Positions 3,401-38,674 of a DNA stretch of 38,674 nt are shown here, one piece after another; within the stretch, counting starts at the first letter, position 1; each line of letters starts with the position of its first letter. The notes under the pieces were generated by a model. That model had not been told where the DNA came from. It was given only the letters and a program-made list of their open reading frames with translations, and did not search any database. This stretch comes from Verrucomicrobiales bacterium (lineage in GTDB: Bacteria > Verrucomicrobiota > Verrucomicrobiia > Limisphaerales > UBA1100). The DNA lies in the NCBI GenBank assembly GCA_005809105.1, contig SYLI01000059.1, positions 1 through 38,674 of the forward strand, read 5' to 3'. Both the position numbers and the translations under genes were made by a program.

Positions 3401-4763
3401 TCAAGTGGGTGCGGGCGATGCTTATAGCCCCGGCTGGTTTGATCTGCCGATGGAAGTGGGTGATGAGGTCGAGATCCGCGTCAGCGCGGAATCGAAAGAC
3501 ACCGCAACGGGTGTGCTTCGAGGCTATGGGGATCCGGCGCACACAGCTCAAGCCAGACTCAAACGTGCCTTGGATGCTTTTATCGTTCGGCGTGGCAGCG
3601 GCAAAACCGTGATCGCCGGTTATCCGTGGTTTCTAGACTGGGGGCGCGACGCATTGATTGCCACTCGGGGGATTATCGCCGCTGGCAGGCAGGATGTGGC
3701 GCGGCAAATTCTGTTGCAAATTGCCGCATCGGAAAAAAGCGGCACTCTCCCCAATGCGCTGCATGGTGCCGATGTGTCCAATCGCGACACCTCCGATGCG
3801 CCGCTCTTGTTTGCTTTGGCCTGCCGCGATCTCGCGGCGGTAGAGGGCAGGGGATGGTACGCCCACAAGGTGGGGAGCGGCAGTCGTACGATTGCGCAAG
3901 TCCTTGAGTCCATCGCAACCCACTATCGATCGGGCACGCCTAACGGCATCCGGATGGATCCCACTTCGGGTCTGGTGTGGAGCCCGGCGCACTTCACGTG
4001 GATGGACACCCATCATCCCGCGTGCACGCCGCGAGAAGGCTACCCGGTGGAGGTGCAAGCCCTCTGGATTGGCTTGCTGCGACAACTTTCGGAACTGGAA
4101 AAGGGCCGTGAATGGGAGGATCTGGCCCGTCTTTCGGAATCGTCATTCGCGTCCTTCTTTGTCCGCGACGGAGAAGTGTCGGTCGTCGATCTGCTCATGG
4201 GTGGATCGAATGTGCCGGCCCGCGCCACTATCCCCGATGGTCTGTTGCGACCCAACGCACTCTTTGCCATCGCCGCGGGATTGGTGCCGCCAGCGGCGGC
4301 CCGCGCATACGTTAGCTCGGTGCAAAGGCACTTGCTGGTTCCGGGTGCCGTGCGCACGCTGGCGCCATTGCCGGCCACTGTGCCACTGGAGGCGCGGGCT
4401 GCTGATGGACGACTCCTCAACGATCCGGCGAACCCGTATTGGGGCCGATATGAAGGTGACGAGGACACGAGACGAAAGCCTGCCTACCACAATGGAACAG
4501 CGTGGGTGTGGTTGCTTCCCATGTTCTGCGAAGCACTCGTTATTGCATGGGGCGGCTCGTCCGTCGCACTTCGTGCTGCGAGGGGTTACCTGCAAGGCAC
4601 CGAAGGGCTTCTTGACGCTGGCTGCATCGGTCAGCTTCCAGAAATTCTTGATGGCGACGCACCTCATCAGGAGCGCGGCTGCGACGCGCAGGCCTGGAGC
4701 GTTTCTGAAACATTGCGAGTGTTAAGTTGGATCGAAGACAAAATGAAAATCCAAACTCCATGA
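480..4763 (+). CDS. Glycogen debranching enzyme, fused GH13 (4-alpha-glucanotransferase) and GH133 (amylo-1,6-glucosidase)
   Basis: A 1427-residue two-activity debranching enzyme for cytosolic glycogen. Residues 1-140 look like an N-terminal beta-sandwich. The GH13 barrel follows, with region I DLAVNHT near residue 250, the nucleophile Asp in GFRCDAGYK near 324, the acid/base Glu in LLEGLG near 354, and the transition-state pair in SETHDNPR near 410. From about residue 770 there is a bacterial-type GDE_N-like segment (LTNGRGAMARMA...). From about 1020 the GH133 (alpha/alpha)6 toroid begins, with GYPWFLDWGRDALIATRG near 1045 and REGYPVEVQALW near 1187. Most bacterial debranching enzymes are either GH13 GlgX or the shorter GDE_N/GDE_C type, so this length and order recall the eukaryotic AGL protein. 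The ATG at 480 has no strong ribosome site, so the start is moderately certain. The stop overlaps the next start as ATGA. Confidence 0.93.
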   Translation: MSDLEMQPAPGGRLVRFVGDRICFTLQGSPDASRAFLRTNLGSAAAIRREIIRPVHGSGLKVMESWRDIALIREGAGWKVDLALTEVGYFQAKAYVVDARGFQSWPHGEDVGVSVHPNHCRTANTIYCAFPRMFGPGKAHRDTSATHDSPAIDRLEKAGYTVIPPSGTLRDLARELPHIFDTLGCRILHLLPVSPTPTVYARMGRFGSPYACGDLTAIDPALVVFDRRTTGVQQFQELADAVHGRGGWLYIDLAVNHTGWGSVLQENHPEWFRRDPDGAFASPGAWGNTWADLVELEPHHRQLWETLAQAFLTWCRRGVDGFRCDAGYKIPMPLWRYLIARVREEFPDTVFLLEGLGGGWDDTQTLLTQGGMQWAYSELFQELRGAQVSRYLDHALAQSQRVGTLVHYSETHDNPRLAAKGRVWSLLRNRLCALTSVQGAFGFTNGVEWLAPERVNVHSSRGLSWGGAPNLVAELSRLNHLLAQHPAFFDGVELTRLSPIDSGVYALLRVPSDAKHTVLVILNTDADSPGSLVLKRADLAPMTGPHGEWRDLLGQALPEIRASGDALHFTLPKGAVYCLATRDIAGDEGDGYRAHRARMAWALQCLATILRPEQLGLMDGPALAQLVLNNPAGFLAALERLRDGTPPEASLADTLHRYASAEEYAPVIEWRLEDCRRVLMVPARHWLLVQLPQPFRATLQQVEGACVHHAGSILVEQGHIVAFPPAHMGRWNLQIRAADSAQIEHCGDIIVLGEGSSAAADFPELARDATGLDAPLVLLTNGRGAMARMAVDLGRVKSKYDCLLAANLDGALPVDRHVLAKRLRLWANADGFISPLDAANLVEFKLGPPACWKFLIDAGDGRTVMVETSIDMVPNENVVEIQIKHLPMTLPADSRLSITARVDIEDRSFHGQTCADAGTRRHLEEHTRTLPNQIGFEFRPSAERGLRVIASHGIYHPDAEWSMGIAHPVEVSRDQVGAGDAYSPGWFDLPMEVGDEVEIRVSAESKDTATGVLRGYGDPAHTAQARLKRALDAFIVRRGSGKTVIAGYPWFLDWGRDALIATRGIIAAGRQDVARQILLQIAASEKSGTLPNALHGADVSNRDTSDAPLLFALACRDLAAVEGRGWYAHKVGSGSRTIAQVLESIATHYRSGTPNGIRMDPTSGLVWSPAHFTWMDTHHPACTPREGYPVEVQALWIGLLRQLSELEKGREWEDLARLSESSFASFFVRDGEVSVVDLLMGGSNVPARATIPDGLLRPNALFAIAAGLVPPAAARAYVSSVQRHLLVPGAVRTLAPLPATVPLEARAADGRLLNDPANPYWGRYEGDEDTRRKPAYHNGTAWVWLLPMFCEALVIAWGGSSVALRAARGYLQGTEGLLDAGCIGQLPEILDGDAPHQERGCDAQAWSVSETLRVLSWIEDKMKIQTP

Positions 4764-6343
4764 ACGGGACTCAACGGCAATTTGAAGGTCTGCTGGATCG
4801 GTATTTCGAGGAAACCCTGGCCGATCATCCCGTGTGGGCGAATCGGGCCGGTCTTCGGGATGGCGAGGGAAAGCTGGGGAAGGCGTCGTATGCGCACTTG
4901 GTGCGCCTTGAACGCCGCCGTCAACGGACTCTGGTGTCACTTGACTCCATCAATCCGCGGGAGCTCGAAGCCGAGCAGCACTTGGACCGACTGGCATTGC
5001 GAGCGATGATCCGGCAGGAGTGTGACGAATACGCGCGCAAGCGAACCGAGCTCGAGCCTGCGGCAGTGGGTGCCGTGCTGGATGTCTTGCAGTTTGAACT
5101 CCAACGCGGAGAAACCGAGCGCGCCCGGGCAAAGCGCAATGTGCTCTCCCTGTTGCGGGCTGCTCCAGGATTCTTGGAAGAAGCAGCCATGGCCGTGGTG
5201 CGCCCCGAACGGGTGTGGTGCAAAGTAATGGAACAAACCTGCGCTGGAGCCCCCGCGCTCTTTGATGCCGTTGACGCGTTCACGAGGGAAGACCATTCCA
5301 CTGCTGCTGCAAGGAAGGCTGTGGTTGCCTATCGCGACCGGGTGATGAGTCTCGCGCCTGCGCCGGAGGGTTCCTTTGCCATTGGAGCCGTGTCGCTCCA
5401 ACGGCTGGTGCACGAACAACTGGGCTTGGATTATTCGCTGGGCGAAATCGAAGCGCTGGCGATGGCGGAAACCCGCCGAATCAGCGCGCTACTGGAGCAT
5501 GCCTGCCGTCGGTTTGGAAAGGGCCGCACGGCAGAGAGCATCATCGCCGAGGCCCGGGCGCAGTGGCAACCGGGCAACGACTTGCTGGGGTTGTACCGGA
5601 AGCAGGTGCAGCGCATCGCTGGGGGCTTTCGTGCGGCGCGTGCCCTGTCATTCCCCGAAGCGGAGGAACTTGAAGTGCGGCTGGTGCCACCGTTTATGCG
5701 GCACCTCTTCCCCACGGCGGCCTACTCCAGTCCCGGTGCGTTCGAAAAGCGGCAGCGAGGCATCTTCTGGGTGAACGATCTTGGACTGGCCAAGTCCGCG
5801 CCGGCTGAGAGACAAGCAGAGCGGCAGCAGCACTTTGGCGTGTCGCTCACGGCTGCACACGAGGCCTATCCGGGGCATCACTTGCAATTTGTCACCGCCA
5901 ATCGGCATCCGCGCCAGTGGCGTCGCCTGTTTGCCCACGCGGTGTTTTACGAGGGCTGGACTCTTTGGTGTGAGCAGATGATGGTGGACTTGAAGATCGA
6001 CCCTTCGCCCTGGGTTCCCGTGCAACAGCTCCACGATGCGCTGTGGCGTGCGCACCGCATCCTGGTGGACCTCCGTTTGCAAACTGGGCGTTACAGCTAC
6101 GCACAGGGAGTGACGCACCTCAAGCGGCACCTCGGTTTCACACGAACCCGCAGCGAGGCGGAGATCAACTGGTACAGTGCCGCGCCGGGCGTGCCGATGA
6201 GTTACTGGCTTGGGCGATTAGAAAATGAACGGCTGCGGTTGCGTTTGATGCAGGGTGGAGGCTGGAGCCTGAGGCGATTTAATGACTGGCTGCTGAGCTT
6301 TGGGACATTACCTCAGTCGTGGATTGAGAAATACGGAATCTGA
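4760..6343 (+). CDS. DUF885-family zinc metallopeptidase-like protein
   Basis: A 527-residue protein of the DUF885 family, thought to be gluzincin-like zinc peptidases. The motif HEAYPGHH (His367, Glu368, His373) and the downstream EGWTLWCEQM with Glu398 supply the expected two metal His, the catalytic Glu and the third ligand. The C-terminal half also has the family block YSYAQGVTHLKRHLG and the tail SYWLGRLE. No signal peptide is visible, so it is probably cytoplasmic. I chose the ATG at 4760 because it overlaps the stop of the debranching-enzyme gene (ATGA), implying translational coupling; an in-frame TTG at 4727 is less likely. Its own stop touches the next gene's ATG (TGATG). The substrate is unknown. 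Confidence 0.88.
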   Translation: MNGTQRQFEGLLDRYFEETLADHPVWANRAGLRDGEGKLGKASYAHLVRLERRRQRTLVSLDSINPRELEAEQHLDRLALRAMIRQECDEYARKRTELEPAAVGAVLDVLQFELQRGETERARAKRNVLSLLRAAPGFLEEAAMAVVRPERVWCKVMEQTCAGAPALFDAVDAFTREDHSTAAARKAVVAYRDRVMSLAPAPEGSFAIGAVSLQRLVHEQLGLDYSLGEIEALAMAETRRISALLEHACRRFGKGRTAESIIAEARAQWQPGNDLLGLYRKQVQRIAGGFRAARALSFPEAEELEVRLVPPFMRHLFPTAAYSSPGAFEKRQRGIFWVNDLGLAKSAPAERQAERQQHFGVSLTAAHEAYPGHHLQFVTANRHPRQWRRLFAHAVFYEGWTLWCEQMMVDLKIDPSPWVPVQQLHDALWRAHRILVDLRLQTGRYSYAQGVTHLKRHLGFTRTRSEAEINWYSAAPGVPMSYWLGRLENERLRLRLMQGGGWSLRRFNDWLLSFGTLPQSWIEKYGI

Positions 6344-36036: not shown

Positions 36037-37335
36037 ATGCTGGCGATGAATCCGGCGAAAATCGAAGACCACCTGCGGCTGGTGCTGCTGGCTTGGATGG
36101 TCATCATTGCCGTCGCGTTCCTGTTTGGAAGACTGGGTCGCAGATGGGGCCAGCCTCTGGCGGTGGGAGAGATCATCGGGGGCATCCTGTTGGGGCCATC
36201 AGTTCTGGGCGCCCTCTGGCCTGATGGCATGGCGGCCCTATTCCCGCAAGAGTCGCAAGAGTCGCTTCAGCTGCTCGCGAAAATCGGCATCATCCTGTTG
36301 ATGTTTCAGGTGGGAATGGAATTTGACTACGGGCACCTGCGCGACCGCTCCAAGTCGGTCATCGCCATTTCCCAGATGGGAATCCTCGCGCCGTGCGCTT
36401 TGGGGTTGTGCATTGGGCCCTGGCTTTACAAGCATTTCCCGCCATCGCAGCCGGGAAGTTTTCTGGGGTTCCAACTCTTCATCTGCATTGCGCTTTCCAT
36501 CTCGGCGCTTCCCATCATGGGGCGCATTCTCCTCGAGATGGGCTTGGAACGGACGGCATTGGGAGCGCTCTCCATCAGCGCCGCCGCGATTGACGATGTC
36601 ATCGGCTGGGTCTTTCTGGCTGCCGCCACCGCGCTCGTGGGTTCGGCTTTCGAATGGTCCAGGCTTGCGGCGCAGCTTGCGGGCATCGTGTTGCTGGTGG
36701 CGTCGCTGCAACTGGGAATCGGCCCGTGGCTGGGGCAATACTGGAGACGCTTGAGGGCGCGCCCCGGCGCCTCGGAATTCCCCGCGCAGTTTCTGGCCGT
36801 CATCCTGATCGTGCTCTTCGCCTGTTGTTACGTCACCAACCGGCTGGGAATCTTTTCCATCTTCGGCGCCTTCCTCTTGGGCGTGACCCTTCACCGCGAG
36901 CGCGAATTTGTCGCCGCATGGCGTTCGCGATATTCCAGTCTGGTGCTGGTCGCCTTCGTGCCCATCTTCTTTACCAACACGGGGCTCAACACCAAGGTGG
37001 GCGGGCTCAATCACCCCATGGCATGGCTGGGATGCGCCGCGGTGTTTGTGGCGGCCATCGTGGGCAAGCTGGGTGGCTGCTGGCTTGGCGCGCGCCTCAC
37101 GGGCTCTTCACCGCGAGAGGCGGCTTGCGTGGGTGCCCTCATGAACACGCGGGCCTTGATGGGCCTGGTGGCCATCAACATCGGGCGCGACTTGGGCTTG
37201 CTCAGCGACGAGCTCTTTACAATGTTTGTCCTGATGGCCCTCTTCACCACCATCCTGTGCGGCCCTTTGCTGCGCCTCTGGCTGCCGCCGGAATTGCGGC
37301 AGCTTGAATCGTCATCGCGCGGCACCCAGGCTTAG
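36037..37335 (+). CDS. CPA2-family cation/proton antiporter (Kef/NapA type), membrane domain only
   Basis: A 432-residue membrane antiporter of about 12 spans that exchanges Na+ or K+ for H+. Signature stretches are LAVGEIIGGILLGPSVLG in helix 2, LLMFQVGMEFD in helix 3, and the ion-binding Asp pair Asp186-Asp187 in SAAAIDDVIGW. Late blocks such as FFTNTGLNTKVGGL and CVGALMNTRALMGLVAINIG also fit. There is no C-terminal RCK/TrkA-N domain, so control by NAD(H) or glutathione of the KefB/C kind is not expected. Starts at 36037 (MLA) or 36046 (MNPAK) are both possible. It is divergent from the NHL lipoprotein gene across a 93-base gap. Confidence 0.92.
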   Translation: MLAMNPAKIEDHLRLVLLAWMVIIAVAFLFGRLGRRWGQPLAVGEIIGGILLGPSVLGALWPDGMAALFPQESQESLQLLAKIGIILLMFQVGMEFDYGHLRDRSKSVIAISQMGILAPCALGLCIGPWLYKHFPPSQPGSFLGFQLFICIALSISALPIMGRILLEMGLERTALGALSISAAAIDDVIGWVFLAAATALVGSAFEWSRLAAQLAGIVLLVASLQLGIGPWLGQYWRRLRARPGASEFPAQFLAVILIVLFACCYVTNRLGIFSIFGAFLLGVTLHREREFVAAWRSRYSSLVLVAFVPIFFTNTGLNTKVGGLNHPMAWLGCAAVFVAAIVGKLGGCWLGARLTGSSPREAACVGALMNTRALMGLVAINIGRDLGLLSDELFTMFVLMALFTTILCGPLLRLWLPPELRQLESSSRGTQA

Positions 37336-37345
37336 GGGCGGCGCT

Positions 37346-37534
37346 TTAGCAGGGCTGATGGCCCCAGTCGTCTTCTTTTAGGGCGTGCTCGTAGCGGGCC
37401 ATCTGTTCCTCCGGCGAAAGCGCTTTCGCTTGGGATGCGGGTGCCGGGACATCGCCGGCCGTAGGTTTCGCATCAGTCGACGGCGCAGCGCAGGCCAACG
37501 CAGTGTTATCGCGATGGGGTTGGGCCGGATTCAT
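37346..37534 (-). CDS. Small hypothetical protein
   Basis: A 62-residue ORF beginning MNPAQPHRDNTALACAAPS and ending EEQMARYEHALKEDDWGHQPC. It has an Ala/Pro-rich disordered first half and a short charged helix. AAGTGAG lies just before the ATG at 37534, and an in-frame TAG shortly upstream limits the start. I do not recognise it. No hydrophobic core precedes the early Cys, so lipidation is unlikely. It is convergent with the antiporter (10 bases apart). Coding status is plausible, not proven. Confidence 0.45.
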   Translation of the reverse strand: MNPAQPHRDNTALACAAPSTDAKPTAGDVPAPASQAKALSPEEQMARYEHALKEDDWGHQPC

Positions 37535-37561
37535 TCTCACTTCAATCTAACGCAATGGGGA

Positions 37562-37602
37562 CCCGGCGGCAACCCTTGGACTTCTTGAGAAGGCTGCCGG
37601 GG
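37562..37602 (-). terminator. Candidate terminator hairpin after the left copy of the beta-barrel gene end
   Basis: CCCGGC and the following AGCCTT on the minus strand can pair imperfectly with AAGGGTTG and GCCGGG across about 12 bases, starting 3 bases after the stop at 37605. The stem has an internal bulge and no T-tract, so it is a weak call. A similar but degenerate sequence follows the right-hand copy at 38385. Confidence 0.35.
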
Positions 37603-37604
37603 AT

Positions 37605-37652
37605 TTAGAATTCCCACTTGAGTCCGAGGTAGACCCTGACGTCGGGGCCGCC
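37605..37652 (-). pseudogene. Remnant 3' end of an outer-membrane beta-barrel gene (left copy)
   Basis: On the minus strand this encodes GGPDVRVYLGLKWEF plus a stop (TAA), the same 15 residues that end the beta-barrel gene at 38385-38674. The 45 coding bases differ at only four places, all synonymous (TTG/CTC for Leu, GAG/GAA for Glu, TTT/TTC for Phe). Upstream of the glycines the sequence no longer matches and no long open frame exists, so only the tail survives. Confidence 0.7.
37608..37652 (-). repeat. Direct repeat, left copy (45 bases, four mismatches)
   Basis: It matches 38388-38432 in the same orientation, with 41 of 45 identical. The 24 bases farthest from the stop are fully identical. 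The pair flanks the HNH endonuclease gene. Confidence 0.85.
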
Positions 37653-37665
37653 AAGCATGGCGCGC

Positions 37666-37694
37666 TTGACGGTGTTTTTTGCGTGGCTTAGTGT
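37666..37694 (+). promoter_or_regulatory. Possible promoter of the HNH gene
   Basis: TTGACG (37666-37671) and TAGTGT (37689-37694) are 17 bases apart and end 7 bases before the HNH ATG, so the message could be nearly leaderless. The -10 match is weak. Confidence 0.3.
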
Positions 37695-37701
37695 AACTTT
37701 G

Positions 37702-38250
37702 ATGGAAATCAACACCATCGGCGAATTGCTGCATTCCTCCTATGCCAATTTCGCCATGGCGCACGCAGCTCTCAGCAAGAAGGTCGAAAAATACGGACGA
37801 ACTGAGTACATGATTCGTGCGCGTCTTTACGCAGGCTTGAACAAACAGACGATGAACATCGGCCCACTCGTCCATGATGAGCGTTTGAAAATGACCCTGC
37901 CTCAAGCATGCTGCTACTGCGGAAGTAGGGAGTTCTTGGCTGCAGACCATCTCATTCCCAAGAATCGAGGAGGTGCAAATTCTGGAGACAATCTGGTTTG
38001 GGCTTGCCGCACCTGCAATAGTTCAAAGAGCGATCGGGACATGCTGGAGTGGTTGCAAAAAAAGGAACAGTTTCCTTCCATCCTACTGCTGCGTCGATAT
38101 ATCAAGCTCGCCATCGAGATCTGCCGCGAACGTAAGGTCATGGATGTTCCCTTAGCTAAAGCCCCTGAGCTTCCATTTTCATTGGCCGCAATTCCAAGGT
38201 CATTTCCTCAGCCTGGCGAATTGCAACTGTGGATTATAGATCTGGACTAA
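37702..38250 (+). CDS. HNH endonuclease, probable homing-type or mobile
   Basis: A 182-residue nuclease. The HNH core is CCYCGSREFLAADHLIPK followed by NRGGANSGDNLVWACRTCNSSKSDRD: two CxxC-type zinc pairs (CCYC and CRTC), the catalytic Asp-His of ADHLIPK, and the N-x-N-K-S-D ending. The N-terminal third is helical and unknown, and the C-terminal part (LLLRRYIKLAIEICRER) may bind DNA. Codon use and AT content are clearly different from the neighbours, so recent transfer is likely. The ATG at 37702 is preferred over the upstream GTG-type extension to 37657. The gene runs opposite to the beta-barrel gene whose 3' ends flank it, the layout expected of an inserted endonuclease cassette. Confidence 0.85.
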   Translation: MEINTIGELLHSSYANFAMAHAALSKKVEKYGRTEYMIRARLYAGLNKQTMNIGPLVHDERLKMTLPQACCYCGSREFLAADHLIPKNRGGANSGDNLVWACRTCNSSKSDRDMLEWLQKKEQFPSILLLRRYIKLAIEICRERKVMDVPLAKAPELPFSLAAIPRSFPQPGELQLWIIDLD

Positions 38251-38384
38251 CTCGCTGTTCGGATGATCAGGAATGAGTCTGGCGGAATCTCCCTCGTGGT
38301 AGAGAGCTAGGAAAATGTCTAATGCGCATTGGGTGCCCTGTTGTAATGGACAGGCTCTCATCGCGAGGCGGCTTCCGAGCGTTT

Positions 38385-38674
38385 TCAAAACTCCCACTTG
38401 AGTCCCAAGTAGACCCTGACGTCGGGGCCGCCGCGGTTGCCTTCGCGCAGGCTTTTTCCGATGGCGCCGTGGATGGCAAGGTCGTCCCGCAGCTTGTGCT
38501 TAAAGCCAATGTTCGCGGCCAGACGATGGGGGTCGGCAGCTTCCTCGCGGCTCACAAAGTACACTTCCGAGAGCAACTTGGTTCGCGGGCCCACCTGATA
38601 TTCCTGGGCGAAGGACGCCAGCCACGAATTCATCTTGTGGGTTCTCTCGCCATTCAACTCCGAGTCGGTCAAGA
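38385..38674 (-). CDS. Outer-membrane beta-barrel protein, C-terminal part (5' end beyond window)
   Basis: At least 95 residues of a protein whose start lies past the right edge. The pattern alternates polar and hydrophobic residues in strand-length units (KLLSEVYFVS, RLAANIGFKHKL, LAIHGAIGKS, VRVYLGLKWEF) and ends in Phe, the hallmark of proteins inserted by the BAM machinery. The layout resembles the end of the MetA-pathway-of-phenol-degradation type porin family, but this is tentative. A TTG near 38672 is only where the visible frame begins and is not a credible start. The last 15 residues are duplicated at 37605-37652. Confidence 0.6.
   Translation of the reverse strand, partial: LTDSELNGERTHKMNSWLASFAQEYQVGPRTKLLSEVYFVSREEAADPHRLAANIGFKHKLRDDLAIHGAIGKSLREGNRGGPDVRVYLGLKWEF
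38388..38432 (-). repeat. Direct repeat, right copy (45 bases, four mismatches)
   Basis: This is the partner of 37608-37652 and lies at the coding 3' end of the beta-barrel gene. All four differences are silent in the shared reading frame, which points to selection on the protein or to recoding. Confidence 0.85.

Follow-up and report, generated by a model that had tools for sequence, protein, structure and literature searches.

The window, by which we mean the whole 38,674-nucleotide stretch of DNA analysed here, is one entire contig (C43) of a metagenome-assembled genome that comprises 2.99 Mb in 106 contigs. Its right-hand part holds a free-standing gene for an HNH endonuclease, framed by two copies of the last codons of an outer-membrane barrel gene (Table 1). 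The HNH gene is antisense to the barrel gene. The window ends inside the barrel gene, and its final 141 bp (38534-38674) overlap exactly with the end of contig C18; the gene is therefore complete only after joining C43 to C18, which gives a protein of 250 amino acids belonging to the Phenol_MetA_deg family. The exact overlap at a contig end suggests a branch in the assembly graph, with possible strain variation at the barrel gene. On the other side of the insert lies a native small gene without a Pfam match, the C-terminal half of whose product (ARYEHALKEDDWGHQP) is conserved across the order. A structured RNA or an intron at this locus was ruled out, since an Rfam search of the locus gave no match.

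Table 1. Coordinates of the features at the HNH locus of the window and of attC-related sequences in HNH gene cassettes of other genomes.
Feature	Position	Strand	Evidence and remarks
Native small gene, 64 amino acids; backbone marker to the left of the insert	37346..37540	-	64 of the 293 genomes from the order carry it
Left copy: detached last 15 barrel codons and stop TAA; probably the displaced native end	37605..37652	-	Codon alignment, repeat statistics, polarity against orthologues
Spacer of 49 bp, left copy to HNH start codon	37653..37701	+	Equal length in L059
HNH endonuclease gene, free-standing, 182 amino acids	37702..38250	+	PF01844 (1.3e-11); family alignment; 44 relatives; AlphaFold model
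Spacer of 134 bp, HNH stop to right copy	38251..38384	+	Low GC; L059 has 109 bp here
Right copy: functional last 15 barrel codons and stop TGA	38385..38432	-	In frame with the barrel reading frame
3' part of the outer-membrane barrel gene (Phenol_MetA_deg, PF13557); 5' part on C18	38385..38674	-	141-bp overlap; PF13557 (1.8e-10)
attC-related, HNH cassette L021	5544-5611		
attC-related, HNH cassette L024	4927-4996, 5547-5612		
attC-related, HNH cassette L025	5544-5611		

The HNH protein scores 44.9 bits against PF01844, for which the gathering cut-off is 21.4, and in the family alignment the four cysteines C70, C73, C102 and C105 (Cys4), together with D82, H83 and N106, are invariant in 34 relatives. 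Score and conserved metal and zinc residues thus place it within this family. The same alignment shows that the start conserved in relatives is the ATG at 37702 and not that at 37657. The AlphaFold model is confident (pLDDT 92.5), and the best profile matches of residues 57 to 162, approximately, are the IscB/Cas9-type HNH domain and the nicking enzyme GmeHNH (4h9d). The protein was nevertheless rejected as an IscB/IshB (OMEGA) protein: at 41.5 bits it falls far below the cut-off of 175, the HNH part alone matches, and its 182 residues include neither a RuvC nor a bridge/PLMP domain. Searches of Pfam returned no other domain in the protein beyond weak HNH and GmrSD_C matches, and PADLOC and PHROGs gave generic HNH matches only. 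VIA-align found no match to the model at Z >=5, the N-terminal third having no clear structural match.

Relatives of this protein, 44 in number and 44-75% identical to it, occur in Pseudomonadota, Acidobacteriota, Planctomycetota, Myxococcota and other phyla, and the gene is single-copy in 38 of 39 genomes. It is present in one of the 293 genomes sampled from the order and in 3 of 392 sampled from the phylum of a Planctomycetaceae locus discussed below (L059); the window protein has no well-supported partner in the family tree. GC content drops sharply at the insert, to about 49-51% from 59-65% outside. The sporadic presence in the order, the relatives in many phyla and the drop in GC support the view that the HNH gene was acquired and inserted here. 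No plasmid-borne copies were found, phages contributed only distant HNH proteins (about 35% identity) among the matches listed, and no copy was confirmed in IMG/VR. Three of the relatives (L025:5001-5600, L031:4995-5549 and L051:4935-5573) carry one in-frame TAG and are probably decaying copies.

Both copies of the barrel-gene end, read on the minus strand, encode the same 15-residue peptide (GGPDVRVYLGLKWEF) followed by a stop. In the codon alignment they differ at 4 of 45 coding nucleotides, every one silent (left/right CTC/TTG, with two changes, GAA/GAG and TTC/TTT), and the stops differ too (TAA/TGA). This agrees with the first-pass annotation, which had described 15 C-terminal codons of the gene on both sides of an AT-richer HNH gene, with four differences, all silent. 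The gene-proximal 24 nucleotides (GGCGGCCCCGACGTCAGGGTCTAC) are the same in both copies, the differences being confined to the distal half, and the likeness breaks off abruptly at both edges. The repeat is far beyond chance: blastn aligns the left flank to the right flank over 44 bp at 93% (E 5.7e-15), and the repeat score is 36.5 against a shuffle maximum of 10.

How did the two copies come to differ by silent changes only? In simulations, five silent-only differences had a P of about 0.006 when the left copy drifted neutrally from an identical duplicate, against 0.22-0.44 when both copies evolved as constrained gene ends. A simple target-site duplication that later decayed is therefore less favoured than the joining of two gene ends already diverged. 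The pattern might also have arisen if the functional copy recombined with another allele afterwards. The polarity of the two copies can be read from two close orthologues of the barrel gene (G259 and G057; 67-69% identical), which are single-copy and have no HNH gene. Both have TTC, as does the left copy, where the right copy has TTT, and their GCC is closer to the CTC of the left copy than to the TTG of the right one. In this comparison the left copy comes out nearer, and looks like the more ancestral of the two, as far as the scanty evidence of two informative codons and two orthologues allows.

The silent-only divergence would also suit two functional paralogues, one of which was removed, save for its last 16 codons, by a deletion accompanying the acquisition of the HNH gene. 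A decayed tandem paralogue of this kind had been named at first pass as the case that would overturn its interpretation; two complete tandem barrel genes were not seen, however, both orthologues being single-copy. Moreover, no second close paralogue was found in the same genome, the left copy shows no barrel-like sequence beyond codon 16, and the insertion at L059 would be left unexplained. We consider this scenario improbable.

We surveyed flanking repeats at 42 HNH loci by comparing the 300 bp upstream of the gene with the 400 bp downstream, using shuffles as a control. A clear repeat above shuffles was found in two of them, the window and L059, the latter in a Planctomycetaceae metagenome-assembled genome, and was absent from the remaining loci (about 40). 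At L059, an exact 29-bp direct repeat (29/29; positions 4094-4122 and 4899-4927) flanks the HNH relative, with the caveat that coverage of this contig is low (2.8x), and its right copy is formed by the following gene's leader and start codon. In both loci the intact gene lies on the 3' side of the HNH gene and the detached copy on the 5' side, with exactly 49 bp between its end and the HNH start codon; by our own estimate, such equal spacing could arise by chance in roughly one case in fifty to a hundred. L059 is a second, independent HNH insertion with a duplicated gene edge. Homologues of its genes were found, none of them with both flanks of an empty site.

There is no likeness between the window repeat and the L059 repeat. 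We also considered, and rejected, the idea that elements at HNH loci have conserved ends: unrelated loci show no conservation of the flanks on either side of the gene, the window and L059 do not share significant similarity in their spacers (p 0.06 on the left, 0.29 on the right), and the right spacer of the window has no relative among the loci compared.

The exact duplication at L059, together with the equal 49-bp spacing and the 5' position of the detached copy in both loci, is what a long target-site duplication would leave. A widely staggered break (about 29-47 bp) would have been filled in, and drift, or recombination involving the functional copy, would afterwards have introduced the differences in the window. 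We regard this as rather unlikely, given how seldom neutral drift yields the silent-only pattern in the simulations, the unequal repeat lengths (29 against about 47), the lack of a repeat at any other insertion and the fact that no transposase was identified. Alternatively, the two copies may be the attL and attR of a site-specific integrative element, now a remnant, whose attP carried a replacement end as in e14/icd and whose integrase was lost or acted in trans. Gene restoration by attP predicts a core that is identical, here over 24 bp, with silent differences on the distal side only, and precedents exist both at a 3' end (icd) and at a 5' end (ttcA, with Rac) [PMC6379469, PMC10111431]. However, the insert measures only about 0.73 kb and contains no integrase gene, the HNH gene being the only gene-sized reading frame of a known family between the repeats. 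In addition, the L059 repeats are unlike those of the window, and close relatives of the HNH gene have no such repeats. An att remnant is thus quite unlikely.

The first-pass annotation had proposed that the cassette inserted near the 3' end of the gene and supplied a recoded end, thereby destroying the target of the endonuclease. In its strict form this would mean that the HNH protein cleaves the uninterrupted barrel end and that the recoded right copy is immune. The recoded end does adjoin the nuclease gene, and the left copy is the more ancestral one at the informative codons. However, the two copies agree throughout the proximal half of the repeat, those at L059 are identical, and relatives of the HNH gene occupy unrelated sites, with no barrel gene found near any of them; besides, a target could be interrupted by insertion alone. 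Such self-protection is very improbable in our opinion, and these comparisons lend no support to target destruction by recoding. What is supported of the proposal is the insertion itself, with an acquired HNH gene, an intact gene on the right and a displaced end on the left.

Other insertions of this family took different forms. In two Bryobacterales-type genomes the HNH gene directly follows a thioredoxin gene (L043:3797-4348 and L044:1996-2547). Relatives without the HNH gene have a terminator-like hairpin at this site, although for L043 their flanks differ; the HNH gene replaced the hairpin and left no repeat. A 13-bp repeat in L044 was treated as chance, because its sibling L043 does not preserve it. 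Furthermore, several relatives from Rhodocyclaceae/Azonexus are integron gene cassettes, with an attC (66-68 bp) overlapping the 3' end of the HNH reading frame in L021, L024 and L025. In G293, which harbours L021, the HNH gene lies about 170 bp from a divergent intI, and in G296 an integron integrase lies 3.6 kb away. The scan that finds these attC elements detects no attC-like structure in positions 36501-38674 of the window, which led us to reject the window copy as an integron cassette; no integron integrase above the cut-off was found in its genome either. The HNH gene is therefore mobile by more than one route.

The best reading of the locus is that the insertion duplicated or replaced the gene edge and displaced the native end to the left. 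More precisely, we tentatively favour an event in which a foreign, free-standing HNH gene inserted just after the barrel gene and left its last 16 codons in two copies, the incoming end on the gene and the native end displaced. The incoming DNA would have carried a version of the gene end, now the right copy, and used it for the joint with the barrel gene, and its other side would have joined non-homologously inside the resident gene end. As a result of these two joints, the native end would be displaced as the left copy and the gene would stay whole. A natural route would be a one-sided transfer of a homing-like kind, in which a break was repaired from a donor whose own, slightly diverged barrel gene already had the HNH gene next to it. 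The layout, the wholeness of the joined gene, the foreign nature of the insert and the second insertion at L059 are established; the direction of replacement, the break repair and any part of the HNH protein in it are inferred.

This insertion with replacement of the gene end is consistent with the silent-only differences, the match of the left copy to the orthologues at TTC and CTC, the drop in GC, the L059 repeat with its 49-bp spacing, the sporadic occurrence of the HNH gene and a layout like that of fungal mitochondrial mORFs [PMC3630166]. Against it stand a polarity drawn from two codons and two orthologues, the 40 or so repeat-free loci, the antisense orientation of the HNH gene, and the thioredoxin site, where sequence was replaced without a repeat. 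Neither a donor containing the HNH gene with a diverged barrel gene nor an empty, HNH-less allele of the window site was found.

If this reading is correct, an element of a single gene can move into bacterial genes and keep them whole, by bringing the gene edge along or duplicating it. The way in which free-standing nuclease genes reach unrelated sites could then be tested directly in this system, which would also link a family of such nucleases to integron cassettes. Fungal mitochondria and integrase-driven islands already provide examples of edge-carrying entry; for a lone HNH gene in bacteria, no report of entry with the gene edge carried or duplicated was recovered from the literature. It is a more doubtful proposition that the whole family forms a bacterial class of minimal mobile genes (about 0.75 kb) that insert at gene edges, duplicate or supply the edge and leave the host gene whole, some members also being integron cassettes, as a counterpart of the mitochondrial endonuclease reading frames that replace gene ends.

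Among the closest parallels are these mORFs, in which the order is gene core, inserted foreign C-terminal end, endonuclease reading frame and native end, as in atp6 of Allomyces and atp6, atp9, cox2 and nad3 of Glomus; in Glomus atp6, the native end differs only synonymously from its relative [PMC3630166]. The window presents the same succession of gene core, gene end, endonuclease gene and second C-terminal end, the latter being probably the native one, as judged from two codons in two orthologues. The fungal enzymes, however, are of the LAGLIDADG or GIY-YIG type and mitochondrial, and some are encoded in frame with the gene, whereas the endonuclease gene of the window is bacterial, of the HNH type and antisense to the barrel gene, of which the last 16 codons alone are involved. 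Prophages and islands that integrate in gene ends, such as e14 in icd and Rac in ttcA [PMC6379469, PMC10111431], likewise bring a replacement gene end and move the native end to the far side; the window insert differs in its size of about 0.73 kb and in lacking an integrase. With integron cassettes it shares close HNH relatives bearing attC near intI, and differs in having no attC of its own. Overall, the feature may plausibly be a bacterial variant of the known insertions that replace gene ends.
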